The notes below the pieces were generated by a model that was not told the origin of the DNA, ran no database searches, and saw nothing but the letters and a program-made list of their open reading frames with translations. The position numbers and the translations under genes are program-made. 41,651 bases of DNA from Bacillota bacterium (GTDB lineage: Bacteria; Bacillota; Dethiobacteria; Dethiobacterales; Dethiobacteraceae), in contig QLUR01000024.1 of NCBI GenBank assembly GCA_018725565.1, forward strand, positions 1-41,651, given 5' to 3'. Below are positions 9,227-38,473 of this stretch, piece after piece. The first letter of the stretch is position 1. Every line of letters begins with the position of its first letter.

Positions 9227-9986
9227 GCTGCTTAAAGCAGAGCAAGTAGCAGTCACCGAAAAGATCTGCCGCCTTACTTACCATGCGGCAACTTTGCCTG
9301 TCGGCGTGGGAGGGATCGAGGCACCAGGTGATGCAAATCCTGTCACTTGTGTTATGGTGGAGGCAGAGGAGCAGGCGTCTGAAATGCTGGCGGCTGCGGC
9401 AAGACAGAGTGCGGAAATCTTGACATCTGCCAGTAGTGAGTGTGAAGAGCTCCTTCATCAGTCAAAAATGAAGATTCTTGTTTTGGAAGAGGAAGCACAT
9501 AAACGTGGCTATGAAAAAGGTTATCTGGAAGGCTTGGGGGCAGGGCAAACTGTGGGCATCGGTTTGCACCGCGAAGCTGAAGCCATGCTCCGGGAAGCTG
9601 TCGAGTTGCGCGAGAGGTTTTTGGAGCGGGTGGAGCCGCAAGTGGTGGAATTAGCTGTCTGTGTGGCGGAGAAATTGGTGGGGAGACAGCTGACTATTGA
9701 ACCGGAAACCGTAGTCACTATTGTCCGGGAAGCCTTGCGCCTGCTTAATGAGTCCGGCGAAATTTTGATCCGCCTTCATCCTAGTGATTTACTGCTCTGC
9801 CAGGCAAGGCTGCCTGACTTGCAGGCAGAAGTGCGCGAGAATAGTACGCTTAATCTTTTTGCCGACCCGCAACTGCCGGCAGGCAGTTGCCGCGTGGAAA
9901 CAAACGGTGCCTTGATTGAATGTATGCTCGATGAGCGCTTTGTTGCGCTGCGTGCAGCATTAGCGGATGTGGCTAATCATGGATAA
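9210..9986 (+). CDS. fliH: Flagellar export ATPase regulator FliH
   Basis: FliH holds the FliI ATPase in check and docks it to the C ring. The 258-residue product has an N-terminal linker, a long Ala/Glu-rich coiled coil (EEEAHKRGYEKGYLEGLGAGQ, the family's Gly-repeat region) and a C-terminal V/F-ATPase E-subunit-like domain (VELAVCVAEKLVGRQL). I prefer ATG at 9210 because GGGGTGG lies 7-10 bases upstream; GTG codons at 9201 and 9204 are in frame. It overlaps fliG at its start and fliI at its end. Confidence 0.93.
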   Translation: MPLFSRLLKAEQVAVTEKICRLTYHAATLPVGVGGIEAPGDANPVTCVMVEAEEQASEMLAAAARQSAEILTSASSECEELLHQSKMKILVLEEEAHKRGYEKGYLEGLGAGQTVGIGLHREAEAMLREAVELRERFLERVEPQVVELAVCVAEKLVGRQLTIEPETVVTIVREALRLLNESGEILIRLHPSDLLLCQARLPDLQAEVRENSTLNLFADPQLPAGSCRVETNGALIECMLDERFVALRAALADVANHG

Positions 9987-11499
9987 AGAACTATGCCGTC
10001 TGCAGCAGCAGGAAGACGAAAATACTTCCTCGCTCTGCTCTCACCCTAACCTTAGCCCTCACCCTAGTCCTCACCCTAGCCCTCACCCTAGCCCTCACCC
10101 TAGCCCTCACCTTAGCCCTCACCCTAGCCCTCTCCCAGAGGGAGAGGGGAGGAGTAGTGAGGGAGAGGGGAGGAGTAGTGAGGGAGAGGCTTTATTGCTG
10201 CCCTATCTGCGTGCGACAAAAGCATTCCCCCGTGCTAAAATTATCGGCCGCGTGACCCAGGTGGTCGGTTTGACCATCGAGGTGCGAGGTTTGCAGGCTT
10301 TTGTGGGTGAAGTATGTCAGATTTTCGTCGACACCGGAGCTGCGCCTGTGGCGGCTGAGGTGGTAGGGTTTAAAAACGGTCATGTGTTGATGATGCCTTT
10401 GGCTGACTTGCGTGGCATTGCTCCAGGTTGTCAAGTTTTGCCTACCGGTAGCGCGTTTAAGGTGCGTGTGGGACCGGCTCTTTTAGGACAAGTGTTGGAC
10501 GGGATGGGCATTCCACTAGATGGCAGCGCGCTGAGTGGTCTGGGGTGCAGTTACCCTGTCGATAATGATCCTCCTAATCCGCTGACGCGGCAACGGATTA
10601 GGGAAGTATTGCCTACCGGTATTCGCGCCATAGATATGTTTCTGACCTGCGGGCAGGGTCAAAGGATTGGTATTTTTGCCGGCAGTGGTGTCGGTAAATC
10701 GACCATGCTGGGTATGATTGCCAAGCAGAGTGAGGCAGACGTAAATGTAATCGCGCTCGTAGGCGAGCGAGGCAGAGAAGTGGTAGACTTTATTGAGCGT
10801 GACTTGGGCCAGAAGGGGCTCGAGCGTTCTGTGGTGGTGGCCGTTACATCAGATCGACCTTCCTTGCTACGTATAAAAGGAGCGCTGGTGGCCACGACTA
10901 TCGCGGAGTATTTCCGTGATCAAGGTAAAAAAGTGATGCTGATGATGGACTCGGTGACAAGGTTGGCTATGGCTCAACGGGAAGTCGGTCTGGCCATCGG
11001 CGAGCCGCCTACTACCAAGGGTTATACGCCGTCGGTATTTGCCCTCTTACCTAGACTGCTGGAACGAGCGGGCACCTCAGCAAAAGGATCTATTACCGGC
11101 CTTTATACTGTGCTGGTTGACGGCGATGATTTTAACGAGCCGATAGCTGACGCCGTGCGGGGCATCTTGGATGGACATATTATCCTTTCCCGCGATTTGG
11201 CTGCAAAAAATCATTTTCCCGCTATCGATGTTTCAAGGAGTATCAGCCGCTTGATGACGGACTTGGTAGATAAAGAACATCAACAACTGGCAGGGCGCTT
11301 CCGTGATTACCTTTCCGCCTACTACGAAGCGGAAGATTTGATTAATATCGGTGCTTATGTGCAAGGCAGCAATCCCAAGGTTGATAAGGCTCGTCAATAT
11401 ATTTGCCAGATGCAGACCTTTTTGCGCCAAGATGTAACTGAATGTGAGCCTTTCGCGGCTGCACGGGACAATCTGGAAATTCTCCTGGGGAAGGAGTAG
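9979..11499 (+). CDS. fliI: Flagellum-specific ATPase FliI, with an in-frame repeat insertion
   Basis: FliI is the ATPase of the export apparatus. The core is complete: IIGRVTQVVGLTIEVRG at the usual N-terminal place, Walker A FAGSGVGKST (about residues 231-240), Walker B VMLMMDSVTRLA, and GEPPTTKGYTPSVF. At 506 residues it is about 70 longer than usual. The excess is a stretch near residues 18-72 coded by a REP-like repeat: tandem SPHP units, then EGEGRSS twice. Because the units are 12 and 21 bases, the frame is kept. The insertion falls before the conserved core, so activity may survive. ATG 9979 is chosen over ATG 9967 as nearer the family's start; neither has a strong site. It overlaps fliH. 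Confidence 0.95.
   Translation: MDKELCRLQQQEDENTSSLCSHPNLSPHPSPHPSPHPSPHPSPHLSPHPSPLPEGEGRSSEGEGRSSEGEALLLPYLRATKAFPRAKIIGRVTQVVGLTIEVRGLQAFVGEVCQIFVDTGAAPVAAEVVGFKNGHVLMMPLADLRGIAPGCQVLPTGSAFKVRVGPALLGQVLDGMGIPLDGSALSGLGCSYPVDNDPPNPLTRQRIREVLPTGIRAIDMFLTCGQGQRIGIFAGSGVGKSTMLGMIAKQSEADVNVIALVGERGREVVDFIERDLGQKGLERSVVVAVTSDRPSLLRIKGALVATTIAEYFRDQGKKVMLMMDSVTRLAMAQREVGLAIGEPPTTKGYTPSVFALLPRLLERAGTSAKGSITGLYTVLVDGDDFNEPIADAVRGILDGHIILSRDLAAKNHFPAIDVSRSISRLMTDLVDKEHQQLAGRFRDYLSAYYEAEDLINIGAYVQGSNPKVDKARQYICQMQTFLRQDVTECEPFAAARDNLEILLGKE
10039..10190. repeat. Expanded REP-like repeat inside fliI
   Basis: About six tandem 12-base units of the type CCTCACCCTAGC, then the palindrome (CCCTCTCCC / GGGAGAGGG arms with a short loop), then two copies of a 21-base unit built on GAGGGAGAGGGGAGGAGTAGT, ending in a partial third. 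It is the reverse orientation of the repeats at 1294-1330 and 41258-41294 and has grown by tandem duplication of its tail and its stem arm. Unit lengths are multiples of three, so fliI remains open. Confidence 0.93.
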
Positions 11500-17878: not shown

Positions 17879-18340
17879 GTGTCTTCTTTTTTGTCAGCTA
17901 AGGAAATAGAAGTGTTGGTTAAGCGGTTGAATCCCGAGGAAGAACTTAACAAAAACCGGGAAGAAGCAGAGCAGCAGGCGCAAACACGGCTTGCGGAGCT
18001 GAAAAAAATGCCTCTCCAGGAAGTGGAACGGGTAGAGTTTCCGGAACTACGGAAGAGTGCCGGTGACGAAAAATGCAGGGAAGTAGCTTTCTTTAGTGTT
18101 GTAACGGTTAGTTTAGCGCTTGAACTTGGCGGTGTCACGCTGAAAGTGCGGGAAATACTTTCGCTGCAGAAAAATTCGATCATTAAATTGGATAAGCTGG
18201 CGGGAGAAAATATTTCTCTTTGTGTTAACGGCAAGCCGCTAGCAAGCGGCGAAGTTGTGGTTATCAATGATAATTTTGCTTTTCGGGTAGCCCACTTGGG
18301 TGAAAAACCTGCAGACTCAGAGGAAATGGGGCAAGTGTGA
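17879..18340 (+). CDS. FliN-like protein with a SpoA domain
   Basis: A 153-residue protein. The first 70 residues are charged and helical (SAKEIEVLVKRLNPEEELNK), with no CheY-binding peptide of the EIDALL type. The C-terminal 75 residues are a SpoA/FliN domain: VSLALELGGVTLKVREILSL, then ISLCVNGKPLASGEVVVIND. It lies between fliL and fliO, where fliM-fliY or fliN normally stand, so it may be a displaced FliN or a docking factor for the export gate. Two further FliN-type genes exist at 32645 and 33198, so its exact place in the C ring is unclear. Start GTG 17879 after GGAGGGTGG. Confidence 0.85.
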   Translation: MSSFLSAKEIEVLVKRLNPEEELNKNREEAEQQAQTRLAELKKMPLQEVERVEFPELRKSAGDEKCREVAFFSVVTVSLALELGGVTLKVREILSLQKNSIIKLDKLAGENISLCVNGKPLASGEVVVINDNFAFRVAHLGEKPADSEEMGQV

Positions 18341-29464: not shown

Positions 29465-29979
29465 GCTTTTCTCTTCAGCAGAATCAAAAGCAAGAAAGTG
29501 GAAGCCTAAAAGATTCGGCAGCCGACTATAACAGGCAAGGTGGATCGGCCATACTGCGCGGCGCAGACCAGGAGGCAATTTACTATCTGCTCTCAGCCGC
29601 AGTTTGTGAGCCTGATTATTGGCTCGCCTTTTATAATCTGGGGAACTGCTGGGCCAAACTCAAAGAAAACCAGGCAGCACTGTGGGTCTATGAACAGGCT
29701 GTTCGGAACTGCTACCATCATGCGCCACTTTTTTTAAATCTAGGGATTGTTTGCTGCCGGGAAGGACAGGCCAAGCGGGCACTGCCGTACTTGGAACAGG
29801 CTTTGTGCTTAAATCCCGCAGACGCAAAGTGCTCCGCTGCACTGGGGTTTGCCTATTATGGGCTTGAAGAATGGGGGCTTGCCTGGCGCTGGTATAACAA
29901 AGCTTTCCGATTGGATCCCCACAACGCTGACTATAAAACAAGTATGCGAATTGTGGAAAAAAGAATCAGTGACGGCTAA
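29461..29979 (+). CDS. Tetratricopeptide repeat protein
   Basis: A 172-residue soluble protein with about three TPR units: YWLAFYNLGNCWAKLKENQA, then APLFLNLGIVCCREGQAKRA and AKCSAALGFAYYGLEEWGLA, each with the A/G/Y-rich helix pair. Such proteins are scaffolds; the partner is unknown. It is the last gene of the rightward series and runs tail to tail into fapA with a 14-base overlap. Its AGGGGG site and ATG lie in a long stem (29398-29464), so expression may be conditional. Confidence 0.8.
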   Translation: MRFSLQQNQKQESGSLKDSAADYNRQGGSAILRGADQEAIYYLLSAAVCEPDYWLAFYNLGNCWAKLKENQAALWVYEQAVRNCYHHAPLFLNLGIVCCREGQAKRALPYLEQALCLNPADAKCSAALGFAYYGLEEWGLAWRWYNKAFRLDPHNADYKTSMRIVEKRISDG

Positions 29980-31402
29980 GCAAGACTGTCTGCCCTTCCT
30001 TGCCTATCGCAATACGACTTTTACCCACAGTGTCGCTGATTTTCAGGATGCTTTTGCCAACTATAAAAACAGTATTCTCGTAAGCCTTGTCCACATCAAT
30101 CCAGCCTTTGCTGCTTACCTGGAGAGTGGTGATCGCACCAGCCTCCGAGCCGGCTTCCTTGACGTAAATCGCTTTCGCCCGTACCGTTCCGCCGCGCAGT
30201 TTTCCTTGGATTTGCACTTCTTGTCCTGCTTCTAAGGAGGAATGGATGCAGCCTTGTCCGCGAATCACAATTTTGCCGGTGGCTGAGAGAGCGCTGTTTA
30301 GAGCGTATGATAGGTAAATATCGCCCCGTTGCTCCGTAGCCTTGTCAAGTTTATTACGCACTTCCAAGGCGTGGGAAACGGTGTCTTGGAGCTGTTTGCG
30401 GTCTGCCCACGAATGGGGTTGAAAGTTCTCTGCAAGTTCGAGCGCTTCTGTCAGAGCCGCACTTTTTTCCGGCGTCTTTGCTTGACTTTGCAATAGTTCG
30501 GTCAGCTGCTGGAGCAGTTCAGCATAGCGGGGGAATTTTATTGATAGTAGCTGGGGAGCAATTGTTGAAAACGATAAGATAGACAGTTGTCCGCGGTTGT
30601 CTAACTGTTCTAATACGGCAGAGAAAGAGGCCAGTTCCAAGATGATTTCAGTTATAATTGGACTAATTTCCGCCAAGACAGGCAGGGCAGCGCCGGCAGA
30701 GAGGTGGCAGGCGATAGCGTTGCCTCTAACTATCAGTGTTTGACCTGCTTTGATGCGGGCTTCGGTCACATTGCCTAGCACGTCTACGCTACCGCTCGCC
30801 AGCACAGAGACGTTCTCCAAGACACTGCCGGAAATAGTAATGTCTCCCTGAAAAGAGAGATGACCCGCCTCCATTGTAACGTCGCCTTTATGGATAAAGG
30901 TTGGCATGACTTGTAAGCGAAAGGTTTTCCCTTCTTGCCGCAGATGAGGTCGGCCGCTGATTGCGGCAAGTATAGTAAGGCCATCTTTGTCTAGAAATGT
31001 GCCGTTCATCGCGCGTAGCTGAATCTGGGGCAGAACGGGCGGTCTCAATAGTTTGCCAAAAATGTCTTTTCCAGCAACGCCTGGATTGCCGGGAATTCTG
31101 GTAATAAGTTTATCTCCGGGCTTAACGGAGGGGATTTCAGAAGAGCGGTGCATGTCTTCGCGGATGGTAAAGGCGATTTCTGCTGAAAGGAGGCTTTCCG
31201 GCAAATGAAATATTAGACTATCGGCTGTGGCCGGGATTAAGGGCGTTCCTTTTGCCACAGTGACCGGCTTATTGCGCAGCGCTAAAGCTTGCTGGATTGC
31301 GCTCTCCCTGATACCATAACAGATGCCCGCTTTAGTTATGGCATCAAGGACTTGACTGATCTCAACCTGAGCTTCATGATTTATAGAAAGTGCCGCCAAC
31401 AT
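29966..31402 (-). CDS. FapA-family protein (DUF342)
   Basis: A large protein of the FapA/DUF342 family, often found near flagellar genes in Clostridia; function unknown. It shows AITKAGICYGIRESAIQQAL, then GDKLITRIPGNPGVAGKDIF, GDVTMEAGHLSFQGDITISG (beta-helix-like, with VLGNVTEARIKAGQTLIVRG), a coiled coil near residues 260-340, and the repeat-like end. ATG 31402 has no good binding site, and the frame upstream (WTLTVSQNA) still resembles the family but has no start codon. In another frame an ATG at about 31480 reads MPLQRKEGEVYLRL; a missing base near 31440 could link the two. The N-terminus is therefore uncertain. Confidence 0.85.
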   Translation of the reverse strand: MLAALSINHEAQVEISQVLDAITKAGICYGIRESAIQQALALRNKPVTVAKGTPLIPATADSLIFHLPESLLSAEIAFTIREDMHRSSEIPSVKPGDKLITRIPGNPGVAGKDIFGKLLRPPVLPQIQLRAMNGTFLDKDGLTILAAISGRPHLRQEGKTFRLQVMPTFIHKGDVTMEAGHLSFQGDITISGSVLENVSVLASGSVDVLGNVTEARIKAGQTLIVRGNAIACHLSAGAALPVLAEISPIITEIILELASFSAVLEQLDNRGQLSILSFSTIAPQLLSIKFPRYAELLQQLTELLQSQAKTPEKSAALTEALELAENFQPHSWADRKQLQDTVSHALEVRNKLDKATEQRGDIYLSYALNSALSATGKIVIRGQGCIHSSLEAGQEVQIQGKLRGGTVRAKAIYVKEAGSEAGAITTLQVSSKGWIDVDKAYENTVFIVGKSILKISDTVGKSRIAIGKEGQTVLLSRH

Positions 31403-31664: not shown

Positions 31665-32648
31665 ATGAAAGAGGTGTTGTCTCAGTCGGAAATCGACTCC
31701 TTGATTCAGGCGCTTTCAAAGGGACAGCTTGCTGAGGAAACAGAAAACGGGAGCCTTGAGGGCGGTTCCGTCAAACTATACGATTTTCGCAGGCCCAATA
31801 AATTTTCAAAAGAACAGATGCGTACACTGCAAATCGTCCATGAAAACTTTGCGCGTGTTCTTTCCAATTTCCTAACTGCTTATCTGCGTACGCCTGTGCA
31901 GGTCAAGCTGGAATCTGTTTCGCAGGTGACATTTGAGGAGTTTATTTTTTCATTGCCTACCCCAACGTTGATGACCATATTTAACGCAGCAGAAGAAATG
32001 GGTAGTGCCATGTTGGAGACTAACCCTCAATTTGTTTTTCCTATTATCGACCTGCTATTTGGCGGAGTAGGAGAAACGCCAAAGAAAATCCGTGAACTTA
32101 CAGAGATCGAATTGACGGTGATGCGTCGAATCATGACAAAAATACTTGAAAATTTGCGTTATGCTTGGAAAGACATTGTGACTTTGATGCCACGGATTGA
32201 AAACATGGACACAAATCCGCAGTTTAACCAGATGATTGCCTCCAACGAAATAGTGGCTTTAATGACGCTGAGCACCAAAATTCGCAAATCAGTAGGGTTA
32301 ATCAACGTCTGTTTTCCGTTTATCACGTTAGAGCCGGTGATAGCCAATCTTACCGCGCAGTATTGGTTCGCTGCCTCGCAGCGGCTAGGCAGCGTTGATC
32401 GCCGACTTGTGCAAATTGGGCTGGAAACGGTAGAAGTGTCGTTAGCAGCAGTGCTTGGTGAAACAACGGTCAAGATGGAAGACTTTCTCCAGTTTGAAAT
32501 AGGCGATGTTATTCTCTTGGATCAACAGGTGGACAACCCCATGTCTCTGCTGGTGGAGAATAAACCAATGTTTCAGGTTCAGGCCGGTATCTCCATGGGG
32601 CGACGCGCAGTACGCTTTCTTGCAGGGAAAGGGGTAGAGGCTAAATGA
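31665..32648 (+). CDS. fliM: Flagellar motor switch protein FliM
   Basis: FliM binds CheY-P and sits between FliG and FliN in the C ring. The N-terminal CheY-binding peptide is present (LSQSEIDSLIQAL, residues 5-17). The middle domain has the FliG-contact region, followed by YLRTPVQVKLESVSQVTFEE, NPQFVFPIIDLLFGG and FPFITLEPVIANL, and the C-terminal SpoA domain has VSLAAVLGETTVKMEDFLQF. 327 residues is normal. ATG 31665 follows AAAGGTGGTGAGG. The gene is far from its usual place beside fliL; fliN overlaps its stop. Confidence 0.97.
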   Translation: MKEVLSQSEIDSLIQALSKGQLAEETENGSLEGGSVKLYDFRRPNKFSKEQMRTLQIVHENFARVLSNFLTAYLRTPVQVKLESVSQVTFEEFIFSLPTPTLMTIFNAAEEMGSAMLETNPQFVFPIIDLLFGGVGETPKKIRELTEIELTVMRRIMTKILENLRYAWKDIVTLMPRIENMDTNPQFNQMIASNEIVALMTLSTKIRKSVGLINVCFPFITLEPVIANLTAQYWFAASQRLGSVDRRLVQIGLETVEVSLAAVLGETTVKMEDFLQFEIGDVILLDQQVDNPMSLLVENKPMFQVQAGISMGRRAVRFLAGKGVEAK

Positions 32649-33052
32649 GTGGTTCATTGCTCTCCCAAGCAGAAATCAACGCTCTTTTGGCTCAGATTCC
32701 TTCATCAGCTGACGGGGCGAATCAGGCTGCGAAAACCGAGTTAATTCAGCCGAAACAGCATGAAAATGAAAAAATAGTGCCGCCCGGGAGTCATCCCAAT
32801 TTGCAGCGGATTCTAGATATTCCGTTGCAGGTTAAGGTAACCTTGGGGCAAGGAACTCGCTCGGTTAAGGATGTGCTGAACCTGATGCCGGGTGCCATAG
32901 TGGAGTTTGAACGGAATGTCGCAGAACCGGTAGACATTATGCTTAACGGCAAGCTAATCGCCCGCGGTGAAGTCGTGGTTGTGGAAGAGCATTTTGGCGT
33001 GCGCATCACACAGATCATCAGTCCTCTGGAAAGAGTCAGAAAAATGGTTTAA
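32645..33052 (+). CDS. fliN: Flagellar switch protein FliN with a switch peptide
   Basis: A 135-residue C-ring protein. The C-terminal SpoA domain is complete (LDIPLQVKVTLGQGTRSVKD, then VDIMLNGKLIARGEVVVVEE). The N-terminus has LSQAEINALLAQI, the same peptide type as the CheY-binding end of FliM and of B. subtilis FliY. It overlaps fliM (ATGA). A Gln/Glu/Asn linker joins the two parts. The peptide that normally belongs to FliY is thus here, while the FliY encoded downstream begins directly with CheC domains. Confidence 0.92.
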   Translation: MSGSLLSQAEINALLAQIPSSADGANQAAKTELIQPKQHENEKIVPPGSHPNLQRILDIPLQVKVTLGQGTRSVKDVLNLMPGAIVEFERNVAEPVDIMLNGKLIARGEVVVVEEHFGVRITQIISPLERVRKMV

Positions 33053-33168: not shown

Positions 33169-33197
33169 ATGCTGTAAACCAGGAAAGGCGGTTTGCC

Positions 33198-34793
33198 TTG
33201 AATAAACTTACAGCCATGCAGTTGGACGCGCTGGCGGAAAGCGGCAATATCTCTATGGGCTCTGCCGCCACGGCGTTGTCTCATCTTTTGGGCTACAAAG
33301 TGGAAATAACAACGCCCCGTTTATCATACACCACGCTCGAAAAAATCCGGGCGTCTTATCCGTTGCCCTGCATCTTGATCCGTGTCCGTTATCGAAAGGG
33401 ACTGGAAGGCAGCAATCTCTTTATCCTTTCAGACCGTGATGCAGGGATGGTTGCTAACATGATGATGGGAGATCCGGATTTGCCTGTGCCGGAGGAACTA
33501 GATGATTTATATCTTAGCGCTGTGAGCGAAGCGATGAATCAAATGATGGGCTCTTCCGCCACAGCAATGTCGGAGATGTTTTGCCGGGTGGTCGATATTA
33601 CTCCACCGGAAATGGAATATGTAAATCTTGGCAGTGACACTCCAATTGGAGAATTTGCCGACAATACAGAGTTCATTCAGATAGCCTTTGATTTGAAGGT
33701 GGGAGACTATATCTCAAGTCAGATGCTGCAAATTCTGACGCTTGATTTTGCCAAGCAACTGGTCGATGAACTTTTGTGTGTTTTAAGCGGGGAAAGCTTG
33801 CCGGAGGAGCCGGTTCTTTCCGTTGATGAAGCTGACACATTGGCTGAGATCGGCAACATTTTCATGGGTTCGGCCGCCACGGCGCTTTCGCAACTATTGG
33901 CTAAGCAGGTCAATATTACTACCCCCCAGGTCTCTACGAGTACGCTGCGCCAAATACAGCAACAGTTTCCGGAGCCTTGTGTAGTAGTAACTGTGGAGTA
34001 TCTGCAGGGGCTTGCCGGAGACAATCTGTTGATTATCAGCCGGCGCGATGCGACTGTCATTGCAGCGCTGATGATGGGGGAGGAAGCAGATAGCCCCGCC
34101 GATCTAGATGAAATCAGAATTAGCGCTGTAAGTGAAGCAATGAATCAGATGGCGGGCGCCGCTTGCACTTCTTTGGCTGAAATCTTTTATCGGAGTATTG
34201 AGATATCGCCGCCGCATACGGAATACCGTGCGCTGGGCGAGGACGCCGGCGCGGAAAAAAAATTAGACGAATTGCTGGTAAAGCTTTCATTTCGCCTGCA
34301 AGTAGCTGGCCTGATTGATAGTGAAATTGCGCAGGTAATTCCTTTTGTTTTCGCCCGGGAGATGGTGAGGGTTTTGCTGGAGGCCATGGGAGGTCAGGAG
34401 GCGCAGTTGCCCCAGTCTGTTTTTGAGTCGTTTCCGGAGCTGCCGCCGGAGCCGCTACTAGCTCCGCTGGAGTGTGAACCGGTTCTCGCCCCAGGTGCGT
34501 TGCAACGGCGGCAAGAACCCGTCGGAACGTTCTGCCCTGAAGGGACGGTGCAGTTAGATCTAATCCGGGATATCCCTGTGCTCGTTACCGGCTTACTGGG
34601 ACGCCGAACTGTGAAATTAAAAGAGTTAATGGCTGTGACCGCCGGATCTGTGCTGGAGCTTGAGAGTAACGCGGATGTTCCAGTTGACATTCTGGCTAAC
34701 GGGAAGCTGGTTGCCAGAGGCGAGGTTGTGGTTTATAACAATCGCTTTGGCATTAAAATCACTGATATAGTTGAACCATGGCAACGTAATTAA
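33198..34793 (+). CDS. fliY: FliY-like switch phosphatase with two tandem CheC-like modules
   Basis: FliY is the C-ring protein that dephosphorylates CheY-P. B. subtilis FliY is about 378 residues with one CheC-like module (two active-site motifs) and a C-terminal FliN domain. This protein has 531 residues, two CheC-like modules in tandem and one SpoA domain at the end (about residues 455-531). All four active-site motifs fit D/S-x3-E-x2-N-x22-P exactly: DALAESGN, SAVSEAMN, DTLAEIGN and SAVSEAMN, each with Pro 22 residues on. The N-terminal EIDALL peptide is missing. A Pro/Glu-rich linker (410-450) joins the parts. TTG 33198 after AAAGGCGG. The stand-alone cheC is frameshifted, so this may be the main CheY-P phosphatase. 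Confidence 0.92.
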   Translation: MNKLTAMQLDALAESGNISMGSAATALSHLLGYKVEITTPRLSYTTLEKIRASYPLPCILIRVRYRKGLEGSNLFILSDRDAGMVANMMMGDPDLPVPEELDDLYLSAVSEAMNQMMGSSATAMSEMFCRVVDITPPEMEYVNLGSDTPIGEFADNTEFIQIAFDLKVGDYISSQMLQILTLDFAKQLVDELLCVLSGESLPEEPVLSVDEADTLAEIGNIFMGSAATALSQLLAKQVNITTPQVSTSTLRQIQQQFPEPCVVVTVEYLQGLAGDNLLIISRRDATVIAALMMGEEADSPADLDEIRISAVSEAMNQMAGAACTSLAEIFYRSIEISPPHTEYRALGEDAGAEKKLDELLVKLSFRLQVAGLIDSEIAQVIPFVFAREMVRVLLEAMGGQEAQLPQSVFESFPELPPEPLLAPLECEPVLAPGALQRRQEPVGTFCPEGTVQLDLIRDIPVLVTGLLGRRTVKLKELMAVTAGSVLELESNADVPVDILANGKLVARGEVVVYNNRFGIKITDIVEPWQRN

Positions 34794-37465: not shown

Positions 37466-37828
37466 GTGGCTAGACAGGTATTGATTACAGACGATACGGC
37501 GTTTATGCGGATGACCTTGAAAAACATTTTGGAAAAGAACGGTTATCAGGTTGTGGGTGAGGCTGAGGACGGTCAGGTTGCGGTCGATAAATACATGGAG
37601 CTTCGTCCAGATTTGGTAACGATGGATATTACCATGCCCCGGATGGACGGCATCACCGCCATAAAGAAAATCATCGAGGCTGATCCAGAGGCTAAAATTG
37701 TGGTTTGCAGCGCCATGGGGCAAAAGGCGCTGGTGATTGAAGCATTAAGCGCAGGGGCAAAGGATTTTATTGTTAAACCTTTTCAGGCAGAGCGGATTAT
37801 CAATGCAGTCCAGAAAGTTATCGGTTAA
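37466..37828 (+). CDS. cheY: Chemotaxis response regulator CheY
   Basis: A single receiver domain of 120 residues. The acid pocket Asp9 and Asp10 (ITDDTAF), the phosphorylated Asp54 (VTMDITMP), Ser82 and Lys104 (IVKPF) are all in place. CheY-P would bind the LSQSEIDSL peptide of FliM and LSQAEINAL of FliN. GTG 37466 after AAAGGAGGG. Upstream, 37350-37465, I see only a weak ATGGCT / AGCCAT stem and no convincing promoter. Confidence 0.95.
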   Translation: MARQVLITDDTAFMRMTLKNILEKNGYQVVGEAEDGQVAVDKYMELRPDLVTMDITMPRMDGITAIKKIIEADPEAKIVVCSAMGQKALVIEALSAGAKDFIVKPFQAERIINAVQKVIG

Positions 37829-37856
37829 AAGTGGTAAAAAAATAGAGGTGAACAGT

Positions 37857-38473
37857 GTGCCTGAGTTGCCGATTAGCGAGGAGTTTAAGCTTGATGTCTT
37901 AACGGAAATGGGTAATATAGGGGCAGGCAATGCTACAACAGCTTTGTCCACTCTTTTAAATTATGAGCGGGTGAATATGCATGTTCTAGAAGTGAGTCTT
38001 TGTCCTCTGGTCGATATTCCTGATTTGATGGGTGGTGCAGAGAAGTCTGTTAGCGGTATTTATTCAGAGTGTTTAGTGAAGGATCATTTTATGCTGTTTT
38101 TTTAATTGATTTCGAAAGTGCTCAAACTCTTGTAGCAAGCCTCACAGGACAAGATTATCCGGTGATGGAAGAAATGGGACGTTCAGTATTGCTGGAAGTG
38201 GGTAATATTGTGACTGCATCATATTTGAACGCCCTTTCTCATCTGACTAATTTGGCATTTCTGCCGGACCCGCCTTTATTAGTGGTGGATATGGCTGGAG
38301 CAATACTTGGTACGGTGCTGGCGGAAACAAACGTGGCGGAAGACCATATTTTAGTGCTGAAGACAGCCTTTGTTACCGCAACGGGGAACATTGAAGGCAA
38401 CTTTCTCATCATTCCTGATCAGAACACTTTGGATATTATCGTTAGAATGCTTGTAAACGGAGCGTGCCAATGA
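37857..38473 (+). pseudogene. cheC: CheY-P phosphatase CheC, frameshifted
   Basis: CheC removes phosphate from CheY-P and pairs with CheD. The first half (DVLTEMGNIGAGNATTALS) reads from GTG 37857, which has AGAGGTG upstream, and stops at TAA 38103. The second half (LIDFESAQTLVASLTGQ, then SVLLEVGNIVTASYLNALSH) lies in the -1 frame up to 38473. One extra base between about 38066 and 38103 restores a protein of the usual ~205 residues; the T7 run at 38097-38103 is the simplest place, though an earlier point would give EGSFYAVFLIDFE, which fits the family as well. The first active site has Val instead of Pro at the final position; the second is intact. The end overlaps cheD. Confidence 0.88.

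Follow-up and report, generated by a model that had tools for sequence, protein, structure and literature searches.

In Bacillus-type flagellar motors, the characterised switch protein FliY contains two phosphatase motifs and an N-terminal EIDAL-type peptide, its CheY-docking element, and is thought to couple the docking of CheY-P and its removal in one chain; the FliY of B. subtilis is 378 residues long. Passages of PMC3035606 describe, for CheC, CheX and FliY, an Asn that is inserted in the CheY active site and orients a water molecule, together with an acidic residue paired with the Lys of that site. According to passages of PMC6946799, CheY binds to an EIDAL motif at the N-terminus of FliM, and most bacteria have either FliN or FliY but not both. 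In passages of PMC7355467, B. subtilis FliY is proposed to form a ring external to the FliM middle-domain ring, and Thermotoga maritima FliY is reported to show no preference for activated over inactive CheY; docking on FliY may therefore matter little generally.

The stretch of DNA analysed here (the window) comprises 41,651 nucleotides of a genome of the family Dethiobacteraceae, class Dethiobacteria, phylum Bacillota (assembly GCA_018725565.1, contig QLUR01000024.1), and encodes FliM, FliN and FliY side by side. Its fliY gene (33198–34793; this and the features below lie on the forward strand) starts at a TTG codon and is open for 531 codons. A probable ribosome-binding site, AGGAAAGG, was read directly at 33181–33188, 9 nt 5′ of the start. 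The encoded protein has the order CheC–CheC–SpoA. Four CheC stretches (PF04509) and one FliMN_C/SpoA domain (PF01052, residues 455–525) were found with Pfam, and our module hidden Markov model (HMM) places CheC module 1 at residues 1–200 (33198–33797) and CheC module 2 at residues 204–400 (33807–34397). A linker (residues 401–451; 34398–34550), probably flexible as judged by its low model confidence and its dN/dS, leads to the SpoA domain (34551–34790; PF01052, 3.1e-20), which matches the solved SpoA domains of FliN and FliM and would attach the protein to the base of the C-ring. The protein scores 541.8 bits against NCBIfam PRK08119 (flagellar motor switch phosphatase FliY; cut-off 218). With the FliM family PF02154 it reaches 21 bits, below the gathering score of 27, and a separate FliM (PF02154 and PF01052) is encoded at 31665–32648. 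The gene order is fliM–fliN–fliY–CheW, followed by CheA- and CheY-like open reading frames that were named by eye (the CheY-like one at 37466–37828). The window protein thus shares with Bacillus-type FliY (PRK08119/NF005995) a CheC phosphatase module, a C-terminal SpoA domain and a fli/che operon setting, but it differs in having two CheC modules, in lacking the EIDAL-type peptide and in having a separate FliN encoded upstream. Comparison of N-termini showed that its CheC module starts at once. Stand-alone CheC has the same two-site module and motif, but it lacks the SpoA anchor and binds CheD (PDB 2f9z is a CheC–CheD complex).

Exact matches to the phosphatase motif [DS]x3Ex2N-x22-P begin at residues 10, 107, 213 and 309 of the window protein, that is, at D10-E14-N17-P40 (33225–33317), S107-E111-N114-P137 (33516–33608), D213-E217-N220-P243 (33834–33926) and S309-E313-N316-P339 (34122–34214). 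Among 20,000 shuffles of the protein, 170 contained one match and none contained two or more. The first-pass annotation had proposed a FliY with two CheC modules, four intact and equally spaced motifs and about 150 codons more than B. subtilis FliY, and each of these points was borne out: the PRK08119 score supports the identity, both modules are complete, and the extra length fits the single-module frames of about 365 to 456 aa among the matches listed from 150 genomes of one order of Bacilli. Its contrast with a known FliY that has two motifs holds for the characterised protein but not for the databases, where two-module FliYs are already present.

An AlphaFold2 model computed from 28 aligned tandem proteins contains two full CheC folds, the linker and the SpoA domain (mean pLDDT 75.9, pTM 0.41). 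The pLDDT falls below 50 at residues 399–455, and the placement of the modules and the SpoA domain relative to one another in the model is uncertain. Module 1 superimposes on T. maritima FliY (4hyn chain B) with Z of 26.7 and an r.m.s.d. of 2.0 over 194 residues at 33% identity, and module 2 on T. maritima CheC (1xkr) with Z of 18.2 and an r.m.s.d. of 3.2 over 191 residues. T. maritima FliY is the closest solved fold, and it also matches window module 2 by phmmer (7.2e-34); after it come the FliM middle domains (Z 17–20) and CheC. In contrast to the window protein, the solved T. maritima chain, at 198–202 residues, is one CheC module, and we take the whole T. maritima protein to have a single CheC module only. 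A fold predicted without an alignment for one three-module protein (L008) had a mean pLDDT of 31.5 and was not usable.

Alignment of the window protein's two modules over 198 residues gives 43% identity, and significant DNA similarity between them is confined to two short stretches (60 bp at 77% and 38 bp at 84%). Identity is 52% between the two first half-modules and 38% between the two second half-modules, but just 23–32% between first and second halves; a whole module was therefore duplicated. The layout recurs in four further genomes of the family, whose orthologues are 88, 89, 89 and 95% identical to the window protein, and in an orthologue from another genus at 61%. Because four genomes share the layout at 88–95% and the modules are only 43% identical, a duplication introduced by assembly was ruled out. 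Against the relatives L003–L005, dN/dS is 0.07–0.11 in module 1, 0.10–0.14 in module 2, 0.04–0.11 in the SpoA domain and 0.34–0.50 in the linker. The more distant L006 gave 0.11 and 0.16 for the modules, at dS of about 2, with no value for SpoA; the very close L002 gave 0.28 and 0.38 for the modules and 0.23–0.44 across all parts, rough figures at a dS of only 0.05–0.07 in the domains and 0.06–0.07 in the modules. The low dN/dS in each module indicates that both are maintained by purifying selection.

We surveyed FliY in several sets of genomes. In the class sample of 97 genomes, 47 had a FliY match at E ≤ 1e-40. The open frames of these matches were at least 536 aa long in 29 cases, single-module frames of 319–443 aa in 15 and fragments of 149–205 aa in 3. 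All 29 long frames were confirmed by the module HMM as multi-CheC, three of them with three modules (L008, L012 and L029). A phylum sample of 299 genomes, drawn evenly, had 214 with a match at E ≤ 1e-20. Among the matches listed, the sole stop-free frame above 500 aa outside the class was that of genome G081 (locus L136), confirmed as CheC–CheC–SpoA; the phylum survey is one of the matches listed, and weak-scoring tandems could escape it. Four outside-class frames with an internal stop in the match, three long ones (G070, G310 and G239; 689–724 aa) and one of 394 aa (G186), were all single-CheC; the sequence check covered these four, and the listing also has frames of 706 and 739 aa in G263 and G153. 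In 150 genomes of the order of Bacilli that contains the Priestia megaterium locus L050, 137 matched the related family PRK06782 at E ≤ 1e-60, and 2 spanned its full two-module profile (G452 and G515, architecture confirmed), at 650 and 646 bits, just below the cut-off of 681. With 29 of 47 class genomes against few outside, the doubled module is ordinary within the class and rare elsewhere in the phylum. The novelty claimed for it in the first-pass annotation has consequently largely fallen away, given these class counts, the 2 of 150 Bacilli genomes and the existence of PRK06782. A literature search by title and abstract opening returned no paper on a two-module FliY; the databases contain the form. 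Doubling is the commonest FliY form in the class, with a related family already catalogued, and is a real, well conserved variant.

That catalogued family, PRK06782/NF005275 ('flagellar motor switch protein', 516 positions), has the order CheC–CheC–SpoA and aligns over residues 3–525 of the window protein, which nevertheless scores 448.4 bits, below the cut-off. The PRK06782-type proteins L169 and L170 likewise retain Glu and Asn at four sites and lack the N-terminal EIDAL-type peptide, but they have a duplication of their own, both modules forming one clade (100/100). Their genomes may be B. cereus-group relatives, a guess made via the PRK06782 family. Passages of PMC12848376 give B. cereus Bc1629 as 'CheC/FliN' and describe the precise role of the FliY homologue of B. 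cereus as unknown; these passages make no mention of two modules for Bc1629. The 'two CheC domains' in passages of PMC3579733 belong to a stand-alone archaeal CheC3 and not to FliY.

The history of the modules was examined in two trees. A quick tree of all 109 rows served to flag long branches that meet. The careful tree retained 94 of the 109, after removal of 15 rows that had long branches or grouped with such rows: both modules of L136 and L010, the second modules of L007 and L009, three T1 modules, the first modules of L030, L156, L157 and L159, and two CheC outgroups. In the window protein and in L002–L006, module 1 and module 2 belong to different clades, whereas each of the following has both modules in one clade: the L169/L170 pair, a set of seven f3-family proteins (14 rows, 100/96) and L022 (100/94), a member of the window's own family. 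This pattern suggests at least three duplications separate from that of the window, plus one loss, unless gene conversion, which could mimic separate duplications, has homogenised the modules. A single ancestral tandem, modelled as one clade of all 23 first modules in the careful tree, was rejected (p-AU 3.4e-10) for a group that included L169/L170 and was chosen after the tree had been seen. Three single-CheC proteins (L015, L017 and L018) fall within the clade formed by module 1 of the window's relatives (100/100; inner forks weaker), and they therefore probably lost module 2, which would make that module dispensable there.

Upkeep of the phosphatase sites across the 32 multi-CheC FliYs was scored on Glu and Asn only. 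Two-module proteins keep all four sites in 22 of 29 cases, three sites in 4 and two in 3; for the three-module proteins the counts are five, five and four out of six, and at least one complete module is intact in each of the 32. The five nearest relatives of the window protein (L002–L006, 61–95% identity) keep all four sites. The strict motif would also count against L010, whose first halves both have E in place of D. In L007, L009 and L136 it is module 2 that has decayed; in L008, L012, L029, L030, L156, L157 and L159 it is the first module, with the second also affected in L029. The second CheC modules of L007 and L009 are near full length and disrupted at both sites (ELRE/ELQE, with Glu and Asn lost; SESP, with Asn lost). 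The three-CheC FliYs L008, L012 and L029 have frames of 805–821 aa, each with one catalytic site missing from the first module. Because Glu or Asn has been lost at one or more sites in 10 of the 32 proteins, some lineages do without the extra sites, and dosage alone cannot explain the extra module in all of them. The high-capacity CheY-P sink suggested by the first-pass annotation is compatible with the data as a putative role, though not as one that every lineage needs.

Docking peptides were sought 5′ of the first CheC module with the loose pattern E[IVL][DNES]x[LIM]; a stricter one misses the peptides of L112 and L114–L116. With 'outside class' assigned from locus titles and genome kinship rows, all 107 single-CheC FliYs from other classes had the peptide, against none of 45 class FliYs and none of 3 multi-CheC FliYs from outside. 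A second set of 40 single FliYs, chosen across families and with no row at least 95% identical to the first set, gave 37 matches, two near variants (EIKEL in L202 and EIREL in L232) and none in L229. In total, 146 of 147 sampled outside single-CheC FliYs have the peptide (the near variants included), compared with 0 of 32 multi-CheC FliYs. A search of the linkers of these 32 for a relocated docking peptide returned only ELEEL (L008) and ELEAL (L012), which we treated as chance. Since 16 single-CheC class FliYs also lack the peptide, missing docking does not alone demand doubling. The association of peptide loss with module repetition draws on about three or four independent losses and should be read as no more than a lead.

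Within the window, FliM begins with LSQSEIDSLI, and the separate FliN (135 aa; 32645–33052; PF01052) has the peptide LSQAEINALL at about 32660–32689. A FliN frame lies just upstream of FliY at 43 of the 45 class loci; the exceptions are L029, which has only 123 bases upstream, and L160, where none was found. With the Bacilli loci L154 and L155 excluded from these peptide counts, 33 class FliNs match the loose pattern (17 at two-module, 14 at single-module and 2 at three-module loci), and seven further ones have EMDAL or EMNAL. At L022, ELDLL occurs in a second FliN frame, and the FliNs of L019 and L024 are without a peptide. What is new here is that the multi-CheC FliYs lack an EIDAL-type peptide and that most upstream FliNs of the class carry one. 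The L169/L170 genomes have a FliM-like frame with LSQEQIDALL and a short FliN frame without such a peptide, so the peptide has not moved to FliN there.

The reading that we favour, with a probability of roughly 0.6, is that the window protein is a genuine FliY built into the switch, a predicted CheY-P phosphatase with two working CheC modules that arose by duplication of a whole module. Its SpoA domain would hold FliY at the base of the C-ring alongside FliM and FliN, and the flexible linker of about 50 residues would let both CheC modules reach CheY-P. Because FliM and FliN have the peptide and FliY lacks it, CheY-P would be captured on FliM/FliN and erased by FliY; binding of CheY by the FliN peptide would follow from its resemblance to that of FliM. 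At each of the four sites, the Glu/Asn pair would enter the CheY active site, where Asn would orient the attacking water. We infer that all four sites are active and that the doubling is of advantage: with both modules active, each subunit would bring more phosphatase sites and a presumably higher capacity, which might offset the missing peptide. A tentative extension, doubtful as it stands, is that placing the peptide on FliN rather than FliY split capture from erasure and freed the CheC module to multiply, repeatedly, to two or three copies and to specialise or decay, with FliY as a dedicated phosphatase arm; the three multi-CheC FliYs encountered outside the class (two in the order of Bacilli and one in another class) likewise lack the peptide.

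Other explanations would assign the extra module a different role or none. It might be mainly structural, in the manner of the FliM middle domain, making a ring-wall contact or dimerising and so widening or stabilising the ring, with the catalytic residues a relic or secondary. The FliM middle domain does share the fold (Z 17–20), and modules with a lost Glu or Asn persist at full length in L007, L009 and L136 and as the first module of seven proteins; we nevertheless consider this unlikely for the window protein, since the four sites kept throughout L002–L006 would be superfluous in a purely structural module. The same decayed copies, together with the three or more separate duplications, the probable loss and the inter-module linkers of 3–76 aa, could also indicate that modules are gained and lost cheaply and that copy number has no function. 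Such neutrality appears very unlikely, however, in view of the low dN/dS in both modules and of the four sites that L006 keeps despite differing from the window protein at 39% of residues. Divergence of the modules for different response regulators, CheY plus CheV, CheB or a second CheY, would agree with their identity of only 43% and their separate clades, and we regard it as highly improbable. A lineage that combines a FliN-borne docking peptide with a phosphatase repeated two or three times constitutes a natural experiment on the number of erasing sites that suits a flagellar switch. Forms with one, two and three modules, some complete in their catalytic residues and others not, occur in a single class, which makes the effect of phosphatase dosage on switching testable.

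Several other features of the window and its assembly were recorded. A cheC gene is split by a frameshift into overlapping frames (37770–38105 and 38069–38473), either a sequencing slip or a broken gene; L167, a relative at 90% DNA identity, has one cheC frame of 232 aa there. In the event of a broken gene, FliY may act as the principal CheY-P phosphatase in this strain. The same assembly (G000 contig C91, L111 1–19501) contains a second flagellar and chemotaxis cluster with a single-CheC FliY of 336 aa, FliM- and FliN-like frames and further CheC matches, which represents either a second system or contamination, the assembly having a contamination rating of 4.67%. On the opposite strand, between flg-like genes and fliM, a 478-aa frame (29966–31402) appears FapA/DUF342-like by eye only. 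A FliI-like frame (9967–11499, by eye) has at its start, at about 10036–10192, a repetitive HPSPHPSP... insert (PLPEGEGRSSEGEG) that looks like a translated interspersed repeat. Finally, a FliN-like SpoA protein of 153 aa (17879–18340; PF01052) is encoded near fliL/fliO/fliP-like frames, named by eye, and its N-terminal LSAKEIEVLV resembles the EIDAL-type peptide.
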